64,000 nucleotides of DNA from an uncultured Candidatus Actinomarina sp. (GTDB lineage: Bacteria > Actinomycetota > Acidimicrobiia > Actinomarinales > Actinomarinaceae), in contig CACLXG010000004.1 in assembly GCA_902610815.1 (NCBI GenBank), positions 1-64,000 on the forward strand, read 5' to 3'. Made by a program: the position numbers and the translations under genes. A model generated the notes under the pieces. The model had not been told where the DNA came from and searched no databases. It was given only the letters and a program-made list of their open reading frames with translations. The number at the start of each line of letters is the position of its first letter. Within the stretch, counting starts at the first letter, position 1. Of this stretch, positions 21,830 to 31,843 are shown in pieces.

Positions 21830-23332
21830 ATGGTACAAGTTCCACTTACACGTGTTACTACGCTTAAAGATATCAATCCTGAATCAATTTCAGATTCAAA
21901 GTATGTTGTTTACTGGATGATTTCCTTTAAAAGAATTGGATATAACTTTGCATTACAACGTGCAGTCGAATGGGCAAATCAACTTTCTCAACCACTGATA
22001 ATTTTGGAACCCTTAATCCTTGATTATCCGATGTCAAGTATACGATTTCATAAGTTCACTCTTGAAGGAATGAAAGAAGTGGATGAAATGGTTTCAGGCA
22101 CTAAGGCTTATTACTATCCTTTTGTTGAGCAATCAGCGGGAGAATCGGAAGGACTTTTAAAAGAGGTTTCAAAGCACGCCTCGGTAGTTGTTACAGACGA
22201 TTATCCAACTTACTTTGTACCACAAATGACAGCAAAAGCTTCAGGTGAGATTAACACAAGATATGAACTGGTTGACTCAAATGGTATTGTACCCATTCGG
22301 CTTTCAGAAAAAGAGTACGTAAGAGCCCATGACTTCAGAAGGTACCTACATAAAAACTTAGAAGATTTTATTATTGAAACTCCTCTTGAAAATCCTCTTG
22401 ATTTCCTTAACAAAGAATTTGATAGCTCACTTGTTAAAGTTATGCAAAACAAATGGGCTCCCTATAATTTTCAAAGTCAAGACATTGATGAATTTCTTGC
22501 AAATTTGAATATAGATAAATCTGTTGAGACAAGTTCTATTAGAGGCGGCTATTCAAATGCTTTAAAACAATTAAATAAATTTATTGAAGTTGGATATCAA
22601 GATTATGCAAAATATAGAAGTGATCCTTCAAAAGAAGCAAGTAGTAAGCTTTCACCTTATTTTCACCATGGTCAAATTTCTACCCATGAAGTTTTTGAAA
22701 AAATATCTGAGTTGGAATCTTGGTCTCCAGAATTTGTAAATCCAAAAATGGTTGGAAGGAGAGAAGGATGGTGGGGGAGCTCTGATAATTTTGAAAGTTT
22801 TATGGATGAATTAATTACATGGAGAGAGCTTGGTTACCACACCTGTGTTAGGCGAGCTAATTACAATCAATATTCTAGTTTGCCTGAATGGGCCATAAAA
22901 ACTTTAGATGAACACTCTTCAGATGAAAGAGAGCACATTTACTCTCTAGATGAATTAACTTACTCTCAAACACATGATGAGATTTGGAATGCAGCTCAAA
23001 ATCAATTACGAACTCAAGGCGTAATTCAAAATTACTTAAGAATGTTGTGGGGGAAGAAAATTCTTGAATGGACACCAAATCCACAAACTGCACTTTCTTA
23101 TATGATCACGCTTAATGATAGATATTCCTTAGATGGCAGAGATCCAAACTCTTATTCAGGAGTTTTTTGGATCCTTGGGAGGTACGATAGAGCGTGGGGA
23201 CCAGAACGCAGTATTTTTGGAAAAATTAGATACATGACTTCTGACTCTACAGCTAGAAAGTTTAACTTAAAACCATATCTTGAAGAATGGGGCAATGAAG
23301 CAGTAGGCATCTTTAGTAGTGTTTCAAAATAA
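21830..23332 (+). CDS. phr: Class II cyclobutane pyrimidine dimer photolyase
   Basis: A 500 aa flavoprotein that repairs UV-induced pyrimidine dimers using light. I chose ATG at 21830, where similarity begins; an earlier ATG at 21809 adds seven residues. The C-terminal FAD domain has the class II pattern: ITWRELGYH, LRTQGVIQNYLRMLWGKKIL, then LDGRDPNSYSGVFWILGRYD and FGKIRYMTSDSTARKF. The antenna domain occupies the first 180 residues or so. It lies just upstream of rhodopsin on the same strand, and both genes make sense in sunlit surface water. Confidence 0.94.
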   Translation: MVQVPLTRVTTLKDINPESISDSKYVVYWMISFKRIGYNFALQRAVEWANQLSQPLIILEPLILDYPMSSIRFHKFTLEGMKEVDEMVSGTKAYYYPFVEQSAGESEGLLKEVSKHASVVVTDDYPTYFVPQMTAKASGEINTRYELVDSNGIVPIRLSEKEYVRAHDFRRYLHKNLEDFIIETPLENPLDFLNKEFDSSLVKVMQNKWAPYNFQSQDIDEFLANLNIDKSVETSSIRGGYSNALKQLNKFIEVGYQDYAKYRSDPSKEASSKLSPYFHHGQISTHEVFEKISELESWSPEFVNPKMVGRREGWWGSSDNFESFMDELITWRELGYHTCVRRANYNQYSSLPEWAIKTLDEHSSDEREHIYSLDELTYSQTHDEIWNAAQNQLRTQGVIQNYLRMLWGKKILEWTPNPQTALSYMITLNDRYSLDGRDPNSYSGVFWILGRYDRAWGPERSIFGKIRYMTSDSTARKFNLKPYLEEWGNEAVGIFSSVSK

Positions 23333-23398
23333 AGTTACACCGATTTTTAAAAAAAATTTAAAAACACAATCACAATTGTAAAAAATCAATATCATAAT

Positions 23399-23418
23399 AT
23401 TGTGATTAATTTCACAAT
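23399..23418. promoter_or_regulatory. Crp/GlxR-like operator before rhodopsin
   Basis: The 20 bp sequence ATTGTGATTAATTTCACAAT is a perfect inverted repeat (7 bp arms, 6 nt centre). It contains TGTGA-N6-TCACA, the operator pattern of Crp and of the actinobacterial Crp homologue GlxR. It lies 31 nt before the rhodopsin ATG. A possible -10 (CATAAT, 23393-23398) overlaps its left edge, which would put the operator on the transcription start. A related site occurs at 27465-27482. Confidence 0.7.
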
Positions 23419-23448: not shown

Positions 23449-24108
23449 ATGGCTGAACTTACTTATAGACTCTTTATGGTTGCAACAGTGGGTATGCTCG
23501 CTGGAACAGTATTTTTACTTGCATCATCAAGAGAAGTAGATCCAAAACACAGAAGAGGAGTATACATCTCCGCTCTTGTGACAGGAATAGCTTGGTATCA
23601 CTATAACAAAATGACTGGCTCATGGGCTGGTGGTGATTATGATACAGGCTTAAGATATGTCGACTGGATCCTAACAGTACCATTAATGTTTGTAGAGGTG
23701 CTTGCTGTGACATCTTCAGGTGCAGAGTATAACGAAAAAGTTAGAAACTGGGGACTCGCTGCAACAGTGATGATCGGAGCTGGTTATTACGGTGAAACAT
23801 CATCTGCAGGCAGTGATCAATACTGGGTAGGATTTGTTATTGCTATGGCTGCATATGCATACTTGATGAGAAATCTTCAAGCAGAAGGTGCAGGACTAAA
23901 AGCTGCAGAAGCTGATCAGTTTGAGAAAATTAAAAATCTCATTCTTGTTGGTTGGATAATCTATCCATTAGGTTATTTAGCTCCAGTAGCAGGCGACTTT
24001 GATGCTATTAGAGAAGTTCTTTACACAATTGCTGACATTATTAATAAAGTTGGTCTTGGTGTATTGGTACTTGGAATGGCAAGAATCAAGTCAGGAGAAA
24101 AAGTCTAA
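23449..24108 (+). CDS. Proton-pumping rhodopsin (marine actinobacterial type)
   Basis: A 219 aa seven-helix light-driven proton pump, one of the shorter members of the family. The Schiff-base lysine is K200 in NKVGLG. The pump motif is D72-T76-E83 (proton acceptor D, T, proton donor E), within RYVDWILTVPLMFVE. M80 sits at the spectral tuning position (L105 of proteorhodopsin), which predicts green absorption. H51 corresponds to the histidine that pairs with the acceptor aspartate. There is no signal peptide. The ATG has a strong AAGGAG ribosome site, a Crp-like operator upstream and a perfect terminator downstream, so it is a single-gene unit. Carotenoid and retinal synthesis genes are not in the window. 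Confidence 0.96.
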   Translation: MAELTYRLFMVATVGMLAGTVFLLASSREVDPKHRRGVYISALVTGIAWYHYNKMTGSWAGGDYDTGLRYVDWILTVPLMFVEVLAVTSSGAEYNEKVRNWGLAATVMIGAGYYGETSSAGSDQYWVGFVIAMAAYAYLMRNLQAEGAGLKAAEADQFEKIKNLILVGWIIYPLGYLAPVAGDFDAIREVLYTIADIINKVGLGVLVLGMARIKSGEKV

Positions 24109-24130: not shown

Positions 24131-24166
24131 AATGATAGGCGGCATTGACCGCCTATCATTTTTTTT
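24131..24166 (+). terminator. Intrinsic terminator after rhodopsin
   Basis: A perfect 12 bp stem (AATGATAGGCGG at 24131-24142, CCGCCTATCATT at 24149-24160) with loop CATTGA, followed by a run of T to 24166. It begins 22 nt after the rhodopsin stop and ends 15 nt before the DsbB-like gene. It is one of the strongest terminators in the window. Confidence 0.95.
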
Positions 24167-25303: not shown

Positions 25304-25927
25304 TTATTTTTCAAATACAGCTTGATATACAAAGTTAAACAAACCCATTCTTTGTATCTTGCAATTCTGGAAAGGGTGGGTTTTAAAATATTCTTCAGGT
25401 TGGGGATATTTATCTAATGATTTATGAAGAAATCTGTACTCTTTTAAGTTAAAGGTTAACAATCCAATTAATAGAGTTACTTTGAATGTGCCAATCTTAT
25501 GCAGTAATTTAAGAAACTTATTTTTAGGCCTGGTCATATCAAGAAGAATAAATTTTCCACCTGGTCGTAAAACTCTATACACCTCTTCAATTCCTTTTGT
25601 TGGATCGTTTACATTTCTCCAGACAAAAGCACAATAAACACTATCAAAAGAGTTATCTGGAAAAGGAAGGTTTTCAGCACCACCAATAATTTTGTTTTTA
25701 AATTTATTAAGCTGCAGCATCTTTTCATCAGGGTCTATAGCTGTTACTTGGAGATTTTGAAGCTGTTGAAAAGCAGCACCAGTTCCACTTCCAAGATCTA
25801 GAACCCTTGTTCCAGTTATTTGATTACTTGCTTTGTTTCTCCAAGATTTATCAAACCCAAGCGTTATGACAGAATTGATCAAGTCATAGAACTTGTGTAT
25901 GTTTGAAAAGTTAGCTTTTTCTGCCAA
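25304..25927 (-). CDS. ubiE: Demethylmenaquinone methyltransferase (UbiE/MenG)
   Basis: A 207 aa SAM-dependent methyltransferase that would carry out the last step of menaquinone synthesis. The SAM motif VLDLGSGTGAAF is near residues 43-54, then VTAIDPDEKML, and the UbiE block FDSVYCAFVWRNVNDPTKGI. The start is TTG at 25927, directly after the stop of the prenyltransferase fusion gene, so both are co-transcribed and cover the last two steps of the pathway. It is shorter than typical UbiE (about 230-250 aa), mainly at the N-terminus. Confidence 0.88.
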   Translation of the reverse strand: MAEKANFSNIHKFYDLINSVITLGFDKSWRNKASNQITGTRVLDLGSGTGAAFQQLQNLQVTAIDPDEKMLQLNKFKNKIIGGAENLPFPDNSFDSVYCAFVWRNVNDPTKGIEEVYRVLRPGGKFILLDMTRPKNKFLKLLHKIGTFKVTLLIGLLTFNLKEYRFLHKSLDKYPQPEEYFKTHPFQNCKIQRMGLFNFVYQAVFEK

Positions 25928-27445
25928 TTAGAAAATGTATGCCACTGCTAGCAAAATACCTGTTAGGAAATGAATTCCTATTGTAGATACATTTACTAAA
26001 AGAAGTTCGTAAGGAACTTTTTGACGGTCAGCATCAGGATTGTTCCACTTAATCATCCATTCATCTGCCATCTTAAAAGCTTTCCAAACAAGCGCTAGGG
26101 GGAGTAACGCCATGAAAGCATAAACTGTACCGTAATCTGTAAAAAAACTAATAATACCTACAAAAGCAACTGCAACAAATGCTTCAATCATGAATTGCTT
26201 ATACAACTTCATTGGTTTTTCAAGCTTCATCCACTCACCTTGTTCTGCAGTTCTCACAACCCAGGTATTTTTACCTACTGCAGCATCTGAAGGAGCATCT
26301 TGAAACTGATTAATCCAGACAATGAGCATTACAAGAATTGCTATTGGAACAGATGCAATCAATGCTTCAATCCAATTCCATTCTGAAACTACATTGTTAT
26401 GAATTGACGCTGTCAATACGTAATGTGCTCCCATTACCATAACTGGACCAAATCCAAGTGCAATTGCGATTTCTCCTAAACCTTTGTATCCAAGTCTTAC
26501 TGGGTCACCTGTATAACCAAGGGCTAAAAATGTTCCAATTATACCTGTCCATAAAATTGGAGTATTACCAAAAAACTCTCCACTAACTTGTTGATTTAAA
26601 TGAAGACCTATGGCAACAGTTCCAGCAATACTCACTAATGCAGTTAAAAGAACTTGTCCAGGGGTCATTAAGCCGACTTGTATAACCCTACTACCACCAT
26701 TAAATGGACTTGCTACCTTATTTATTTCGTCGGCGTTTGAAGTGTGATCGAAATAATCATTTGATGAATTTGTTGCAACTTGAGCTAATGATGCTCCACC
26801 AAGAACAAGCCAAAACATTCTCCATGACCAACTTGAATCTAAACCAGCTTCTTTTAAATCATTCCATGCAACTGCTGCACCAATAAAAATTGGGGCAAAA
26901 GTAGCTGTCAAAAATGGTGCACGAATTGTCCTAAGCCAAAGTCCAATTCTTTTTAATCCAAGTTTAAAAGCCATTTTTACTGCAGATGTCTTATTTGCAG
27001 GGTATGTCTTCCACTCAAACTTTTCTTCTTGATAAAAGTTCACATATTTAATAGTTGTTGGTTTAATTCTGTAATAACCGACAACATCATTTTTGATTAA
27101 AAACTCATCTTCCATGAACTCTTTAAAAGCTTCAGTAGTATTTAAGACTAATTCGTAAGCTTTTTTCTTTTCATCTTCGTCTTTAATTTTGTAGCACTCA
27201 CCATCTATTTGCAATCCTTCGATTCCTTCTTGACCTTTTGGCCAGATTACAACGTGCACTCTGGGGTTTAATCTTATTTGTTCAGCTTTACGGGTAGGGT
27301 GGAAGGTAAAGAAAACTAGATCTTCTCCATCTCTACTAAAAAATACGGAAGCTCCTGAAGAGTTACCTCCTACACTTGTAGCTATAAACATCCGATCAGC
27401 TTGATCTAAAACATTCTCAATTTTTTTATCTAAAACATCATTCAT
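25928..27445 (-). CDS. Split-barrel (PNPOx-like) / UbiA prenyltransferase fusion, probable MenA
   Basis: A 505 aa two-domain protein from the ATG at 27445; a TTG at 27517 would add 24 residues without family character. Residues 1-140 resemble the pyridoxamine 5-phosphate oxidase-like flavin split-barrel fold (FIATSVGG...SVFFSRDG...PRVHVVIWP). Residues about 165-505 form a UbiA-type prenyltransferase with about eight helices, the aspartate motif NDYFDHTSNAD at 229-239 and a second motif DAPSDAA near residue 380. The C-terminal part fits MenA, which prenylates dihydroxynaphthoate. The adjacent ubiE supports menaquinone synthesis. The function of the split-barrel domain is unknown; it could bind flavin, F420 or heme. 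Confidence 0.82.
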   Translation of the reverse strand: MNDVLDKKIENVLDQADRMFIATSVGGNSSGASVFFSRDGEDLVFFTFHPTRKAEQIRLNPRVHVVIWPKGQEGIEGLQIDGECYKIKDEDEKKKAYELVLNTTEAFKEFMEDEFLIKNDVVGYYRIKPTTIKYVNFYQEEKFEWKTYPANKTSAVKMAFKLGLKRIGLWLRTIRAPFLTATFAPIFIGAAVAWNDLKEAGLDSSWSWRMFWLVLGGASLAQVATNSSNDYFDHTSNADEINKVASPFNGGSRVIQVGLMTPGQVLLTALVSIAGTVAIGLHLNQQVSGEFFGNTPILWTGIIGTFLALGYTGDPVRLGYKGLGEIAIALGFGPVMVMGAHYVLTASIHNNVVSEWNWIEALIASVPIAILVMLIVWINQFQDAPSDAAVGKNTWVVRTAEQGEWMKLEKPMKLYKQFMIEAFVAVAFVGIISFFTDYGTVYAFMALLPLALVWKAFKMADEWMIKWNNPDADRQKVPYELLLVNVSTIGIHFLTGILLAVAYIF

Positions 27446-27464
27446 ATCGATCACGATAATATGC

Positions 27465-27501
27465 TTGTGAAATAATGCACAAAGTATTTGGTGCATTATT
27501 T
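27465..27501. promoter_or_regulatory. Crp-like site overlapping a 32 nt near-perfect palindrome, divergent promoter region
   Basis: Between the menA-like gene (minus) and the ABC exporter (plus), TTGTG-N8-CACAA lies at 27465-27482, the same arrangement as before rhodopsin. It overlaps a longer palindrome at 27470-27501: AAATAATGCAC and GTGCATTATTT pair perfectly, and 14 of 16 positions pair over the full 32 nt. The long palindrome could be an operator for a dimeric repressor. A possible -10 (TAAAAT, 27502-27507) for the exporter would place the Crp-like centre near -40. Confidence 0.6.
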
Positions 27502-27532
27502 TAAAATTTTTATCCAATTATCATGGTAAAAC

Positions 27533-31011: not shown

Positions 31012-31843
31012 CTTCTTTTTTTAATCTATTTTTAGCTATTTGAATGTACTCTGCTTCAATTTCATAACCTACAAAATTTCGTTCCAATAATTTTGCAGCT
31101 ATAGCTGTTGTTCCGCTTCCTATAAAAGGATCAAGAATTAAATCATTTTTGTATGTGTATAGGTTTATAAATTTTTGTGGCAGTTCTATTGGAAATGGAG
31201 CAGGATGACCTATTTTCTTTGCTCTCGCTGGATTAATATTCCATATAGAAAGTGTAGATTCCATAAACTCTTCTTTTTCAAGAGAAGATTCACCTTGAGT
31301 AGATTTTTTAAGTGAATCTTTTGAAAATACTAAACAATACTCGTGAATATCTCTAATAACTGGATTGGACGCTGATAGCCAGCTACCCCAGGCAAAATTA
31401 GCATTAGCTCCTTTGGATTTTTGCCAAATGATTTCACCACGCATAATAAAACCCGTCTCAATTAAAAGCTCTGTGAAGTATTTTGAAAAAGGAATATAAG
31501 GTTTCCTGCCTAAATTAGCAACATTTACAACAAGTCTTCCCCCGGATTCAGTGACTCTATATGTTTCTTTAAAAATATTTTCCATCATTGACCAGTACTC
31601 ATCATCAGTTAAATCTAAGTCGCTCTCCTTACCAATGTTGTAAGGAGGGGAAGTGACGGTGAGGCTAACAGAATTATTTTCAAGTTCCTTCATATTTTCA
31701 GAACTTTTGTGAAAAATTTCATCTATTATTTTTGATTTATTGTTTGAGTATATGACTTCCTTTAATTCTGTTTTATCTTGGAAGGTAGAAACAAATGCTT
31801 TTCGAGATCCGGAACCAGATTTAAAAAATGAATTTTTCTTCAT
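31004..31843 (-). CDS. Orphan DNA methyltransferase, N4-cytosine or N6-adenine type
   Basis: A 279 aa site-specific DNA methyltransferase. The catalytic motif TSPPYN (S65-Y68) precedes the SAM motif LDPFIGSGTT (about 237-246), the beta-class order. SPPY is usually associated with N4-cytosine methylation, although N6-adenine enzymes with this motif exist. The target-recognition segment would lie between about residues 120 and 215. No restriction enzyme or specificity subunit is nearby, so it is probably a housekeeping or regulatory orphan enzyme. It overlaps the convergent ABC gene by 8 nt. Confidence 0.9.
   Translation of the reverse strand: MKKNSFFKSGSGSRKAFVSTFQDKTELKEVIYSNNKSKIIDEIFHKSSENMKELENNSVSLTVTSPPYNIGKESDLDLTDDEYWSMMENIFKETYRVTESGGRLVVNVANLGRKPYIPFSKYFTELLIETGFIMRGEIIWQKSKGANANFAWGSWLSASNPVIRDIHEYCLVFSKDSLKKSTQGESSLEKEEFMESTLSIWNINPARAKKIGHPAPFPIELPQKFINLYTYKNDLILDPFIGSGTTAIAAKLLERNFVGYEIEAEYIQIAKNRLKKEVN

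Follow-up and report, generated by a model that had tools for sequence, protein, structure and literature searches.

A conserved palindrome before the rhodopsin gene of Candidatus Actinomarina most probably brings a proton-pumping rhodopsin into the Rex regulon

The redox-sensing repressor Rex binds DNA and represses its targets when it carries NAD+, and NADH releases it (PMC5355995, PMC8836258). In Streptomyces avermitilis, the Rex consensus is TTGTGAANNNNTTCACAA, the operators overlap the -35 element or the start site, and nuoA1-N1 and the WhiB gene wblE are under direct Rex control (PMC5355995). The same protein binds TTGTGATACGGTTCACGA before atpI, a site whose left half reads TTGTGAT (PMC5355995). 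On the side of the light pumps, Vibrio proteorhodopsin is under starvation control, linked to RpoS and carbon limitation (PMC9040609), and the MACR/MAR rhodopsin has been described for Candidatus Actinomarinales (PMC7771536). Our literature search found no paper joining a rhodopsin with Rex, though one may exist beyond its reach. Here, we compare with these systems a palindrome that stands before a rhodopsin gene of Candidatus Actinomarina and argue that it is most probably the mark of a new, proton-pumping member of the Rex regulon.

The locus lies in a 64-kb window (the whole stretch of DNA analysed, 64,000 nucleotides) of a 1.1-Mb genome that is 94% complete. The rhodopsin gene (23449 to 24108, plus strand; PF01036) encodes a 219-aa protein of the marine actinobacterial clade and of the outward proton pump type, whose nearest solved relative is the MACR/MAR proton pump 5JSI (E=1.9e-119). 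A photolyase-like gene is found 5' of it, and a strong intrinsic terminator with a 12-bp stem and a T run follows it (24131 to 24160, plus strand), which suggests that the rhodopsin unit is monocistronic. Upstream of the gene, ATTGTGATTAATTTCACAAT occupies positions 23399 to 23418 exactly (no strand assigned), so the palindrome reported by the first-pass annotation is real. Its description there as a perfect inverted repeat is right for the 7-nt arms, ATTGTGA and TCACAAT, which are fully complementary, and wrong for the 6-nt centre TTAATT, which is not self-complementary; similarly, the palindrome does precede the rhodopsin ATG at 23449, at a spacing of 30 bases and not 31.

Such a sequence is not expected by chance in this DNA. 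The core TGTGA-N6-TCACA, which is the Crp pattern without any mismatch, occurs a single time in the window (23401 to 23416), for which base-composition arithmetic predicts ~0.07 perfect copies of this core and <0.01 of the longer TTGTGA-N6-TCACAA. Loose versions of the core, with at most two mismatches, are not enriched in the 64 kb (24 found versus 38 expected). A count of the 18-mer TTGTGA-N6-TCACAA in 42 genomes of the order gave 125 copies versus 16 for its reversed control. Altogether, the rhodopsin gene is preceded by a genuine palindrome that is both rare and conserved.

Among forward promoter-like sequences ahead of the gene, the best match (23369 to 23398, plus strand) agrees with 9 of the 12 consensus positions, by consensus match only, and is composed of a -35 ATCACA (23369 to 23374), an 18-nt spacer, and a -10 CATAAT (23393 to 23398). 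The first-pass annotation had already singled out this -10 and a repressor geometry on the start site; the candidate promoter is consistent with both, since it would place the transcription start inside the operator, at a predicted position near 23403 to 23406. Start sites of Actinomarina rhodopsin were not found in the text of the metatranscriptomic start-site paper PMC5069720. Farther upstream, comparison of the loci revealed an invariant AATAAAGTTACA block (23328 to 23339, plus strand), which overlaps the photolyase-like gene at its stop codon. This block, which comes after a TA[CG]TA-like element, is identical in 23 rhodopsin loci (13 of subclade 1 and 10 of subclade 2), about 118 nt upstream of the ATG, and is missing from deeper branches; it may serve as a distal promoter or as a site for an activator.

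Motif, target genes, and predicted operator positions all agree with Rex, and we consider it highly probable that the palindrome is a Rex operator (ROP), at which Rex-NAD+ would repress and NADH would release a rhodopsin gene sharing its regulon with respiratory genes. As for the motif, the rhodopsin palindrome matches 12/12 positions of TTGTGA-N6-TCACAA and 13/14 of TTGTGAA-N4-TTCACAA, its left half ending in T. As for the targets, the window's genome contains four perfect copies of TTGTGA-N6-TCACAA: (i) 13 nt before nuoA, at the head of the complex I operon, (ii) 19 nt before a WhiB1/WblE-type gene, the product of which is closest to WhiB1, (iii) upstream of a 64-aa ORF, itself followed by copZ and a Cu-ATPase gene, and (iv) before rhodopsin. 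The nuoA site is kept in 30/30 relatives and the whiB site in 29/29 relatives with readable sequence.

A second putative Rex operator of the window, TTGTGAAATAATGCACAA (27465 to 27482, no strand assigned), deviates by one mismatch, overlaps a probable -35, and lies before a menA-like gene (25928 to 27450, minus strand), which encodes, by its domain matches, a MenA-like UbiA prenyltransferase with an N-terminal PNPOx domain. This gene would start at an internal ATG near 27446, the mechanical TTG start at 27517 being probably too far upstream, and a UbiE/MenG-type methyltransferase gene (25304 to 25927) comes after it; the pair is a putative menaquinone synthesis unit and Rex co-target. The menA site, TTGTGCATTATTTCACAA, is kept in 17/17 relatives, one of them with a single centre-base change. 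Thus, conserved sites of this type are found at respiratory genes, as a Rex regulon would have it.

We also scanned the positions of the window with a matrix trained on the nuoA and whiB sites, from which rhodopsin and menA were excluded, the genome-wide search being made by pattern. The menA site ranked first (20.4 bits) and the rhodopsin site second (17.4 bits, versus a training minimum of 23.7), the latter falling below the sites of nuoA and whiB in strength because its left half is TTGTGAT and not TTGTGAA. The rhodopsin sites of three deep-branching loci (L030, L061, and L062) reach 25.9 bits with the same matrix. A further matrix site, at 31706, was set aside as it falls inside a DNA methyltransferase-like ORF. 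Concerning the third perfect copy, TTGTGAATATATTCACAA is a perfect palindromic operator before a Cys/His-containing ORF of 64 aa (L057, 5553 to 5783) that has no Pfam or NCBIfam match; its 18-mer recurs in many relatives, and its gene context is taken from the window's genome alone.

The repressor itself is encoded in 38/42 genomes of the order, according to a profile search. The four absences are probably assembly gaps, since three of these genomes (G015, G022, and G032) also lack the main nuoA, the neighbor of rex, and in the fourth (G016) nuoA is 1.5 kb from a contig end. In the window's genome, rex is a 219-codon frame (contig C5, 12595) two genes from nuoA, and its product matches the NCBIfam equivalog NF003992 (270.8 bits versus a cut-off of 226), carries the Pfam domains PF06971 and PF02629, and aligns with a Rex of known structure (E=2.7e-47). 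Its recognition helix QVRRDLSYLG and wing GTRGVGY are identical in ten relatives. The base-contacting residues of Thermotoga Rex, including Lys49, have been reported (PMC8836258); by our matching of the residues, the Actinomarina protein shares with it the first Arg of the recognition helix and, in the wing, Arg-Gly and Tyr, and has Arg in place of Lys49.

We propose that Rex-NAD+ would sit on the rhodopsin promoter, overlapping the transcription start, and would block RNA polymerase there. When NADH rises, Rex would bind it and leave the DNA, and the proton-pump gene would be transcribed. As a common repressor of the nuoA operon, menA, the WhiB1/WblE-type regulator gene, the small-ORF gene, and rhodopsin, Rex would make the light pump part of a small respiratory and proton-motive-force regulon, with rhodopsin produced at high NADH alongside complex I and menaquinone synthesis. 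Moreover, the proton-motive force made by the pump in light would slow complex I and raise NADH, which would keep Rex off the DNA and yield more pump and more complex I; by this further step, Rex may act as an indirect sensor of light and proton-motive force in a positive loop. The full scheme, in which rhodopsin belongs to the NADH/NAD+ regulon of Rex with complex I and menaquinone, light is read indirectly via NADH, and the promoter descends from an ancestral one with two operators, is put forward tentatively, as possible rather than probable in all its parts.

The first-pass annotation had suggested looking for the palindrome before orthologous rhodopsin genes. Among the 32 loci with a readable rhodopsin promoter, 21 possess the operator with at most one mismatch, 10 carry instead the 15-nt variant TGTGAACGTTTCACA, and one, that of genome G014 (L025), has no operator. 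In the 13 genomes of subclade 1, to which the window belongs, the operator arms are 97% conserved versus 82% for the remaining upstream intergenic region. The variant TGTGAACGTTTCACA is that of subclade 2 (L015 to L024): its spacer is one base shorter, it lies about 30 to 45 nt before the rhodopsin ATG, and it occurs once per genome, before rhodopsin only. The Rex dimer may be unable to bind this shorter-spaced palindrome.

The rhodopsin promoter of three deep-branching loci (L030, L061, and L062) has two perfect operators around it, whose starts lie 41 bp from each other. The upstream operator alone is full in L026 to L029, and the downstream one alone in the window's subclade, where the upstream spot is reduced to a TCACAA half-site. 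In the window, locus comparison places this isolated half-site at 23370 to 23375 (no strand assigned), 24 bp upstream of the operator, and it recurs at the same spacing in 10/13 subclade-1 loci; it is probably a remnant of the upstream operator that is intact in L030, L061, and L062. These three layouts suggest an ancestral rhodopsin promoter with two operators, followed by one-sided decay. When the rhodopsin tree is rooted with outgroups, all of them very distant, L030 and L062 come out as sister to the rest. Since a different gene stands upstream of rhodopsin in these two loci, both with two perfect operators nonetheless, the operators travel with rhodopsin and not with its neighborhood. Beyond the genus, about 690 genome searches supplied 46 rhodopsin loci from other Actinomycetota, none with a perfect operator and a single one (L242, TAGTGAAAGGAATCACAA) with a one-mismatch site; hence, the wiring of rhodopsin to Rex looks genus-specific and gains no support from elsewhere. 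Nine genomes of the genus in which no rhodopsin was found have kept perfect Rex-type sites; as they are only 60 to 86% complete, they do not demonstrate a real loss of rhodopsin.

The erosion of one operator to a half-site, the weaker left half of the other, the altered spacer of one subclade, and the bare promoter of G014 could also be read as the traces of a former Rex control of rhodopsin that is now disappearing from the lineage of the window and from related ones. We regard such a relic as unlikely, as the arms are among the most conserved upstream blocks in the 13 subclade-1 genomes (the 97% versus 82% given above). Slightly further from our expectations is another dimeric repressor, so far unrecognised, governing the same regulon: Rex was put forward as the regulator from motif, gene content, and location, and the shorter spacer of subclade 2 would be odd for Rex. 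This is improbable in view of the coincidence of the motif, the targets (nuo and the WhiB1/WblE-type gene), and the predicted operator positions with experimentally established Streptomyces Rex targets (PMC5355995), and the place of rex, two genes from nuoA, also speaks against it.

The Crp/GlxR operator proposed by the first-pass annotation, at which a cAMP-responsive Crp-family protein bound to TGTGA-N6-TCACA would couple rhodopsin to carbon supply, has in its favor that the core fits the Crp consensus and that the left half TGTGAT is Crp-like. On the other hand, none of the order's 42 genomes encodes the cNMP-binding domain PF00027 (0/42), in a search whose control was positive in 10/14 known genomes, including Corynebacterium glutamicum, and the class III adenylate cyclase PF00211 is equally absent (0/42, control positive). 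Candidates for a Crp-type protein were provided by matches to HTH_Crp_2, and these were rejected: they are weak and partial, and the one of the window's genome is a DtxR-type protein with an iron-repressor dimerisation domain. Moreover, TTGTGAA-N4-TTCACAA is the form that the site takes in its other copies, which are found at complex I, whiB, and menA. The absence of both PF00027 and PF00211 from the 42 genomes, together with the DtxR identity of the HTH_Crp_2 match, makes this operator very hard to sustain, short of a highly diverged Crp protein that escapes the profiles. The annotation had itself called for a search for the Crp-family homologue and named its absence as refuting, and none was found in the 42 genomes. 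Its broader idea of carbon- or energy-state control survives in part: a Rex-type site argues for energy-state control of the stand-alone rhodopsin gene, and Crp/GlxR is dropped as the regulator. The gene of the DtxR-type iron-dependent repressor with the weak HTH_Crp_2 score (L155, 1405 to 2091) is located on contig C7, which it shares with a second nuoA copy. Finally, an RNA hairpin in the 5' leader, whose arms could pair if transcription began upstream of them, has next to nothing to recommend it, given an AU-rich stem of 7 bp, the lack of any matching Rfam family for the palindrome, and the occurrence of the same sequence at the place of a promoter -35, both before menA and in L026 to L030.

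Little is known of how marine photoheterotrophs control rhodopsin production, and regulators are few in streamlined lineages. Rex, the most probable regulator here and one of those retained in this uncultured and highly streamlined ocean actinobacterium, seems to link the light pump with the NADH/NAD+ balance and with complex I. The pump would then answer to the redox state of respiration instead of a Crp-type sugar or cAMP signal.

Compared with the systems described so far, the window's rhodopsin is of the same protein family as the MACR/MAR rhodopsin (5JSI; PMC7771536), an outward proton pump as well; the available part of that paper does not discuss transcriptional control or contain the term Rex, and this is where our analysis differs from it. 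With Crp/GlxR operators, the palindrome shares core sequence and spacing, whereas Actinomarina has neither a Crp-family protein nor a class III cyclase. The resemblance to the Streptomyces Rex regulon (PMC5355995) extends to the operator TTGTGAANNNNTTCACAA, to the nuoA operon and a WhiB gene as targets, and, by the candidate promoter, probably to the placement of operators at the -35 or start; even the TTGTGAT left half of the rhodopsin operator has its counterpart in the Streptomyces atpI site. In contrast, rhodopsin is not among the targets reported for Streptomyces, menA and rhodopsin being putative targets in Actinomarina, and the Actinomarina rex gene is near nuoA and not before hemA. Like Vibrio proteorhodopsin (PMC9040609), the Actinomarina rhodopsin would respond to the energy or nutrient state more than to light; unlike the RpoS and carbon-limitation control of Vibrio, the predicted device is an NADH/NAD+ repressor, with derepression at high NADH.
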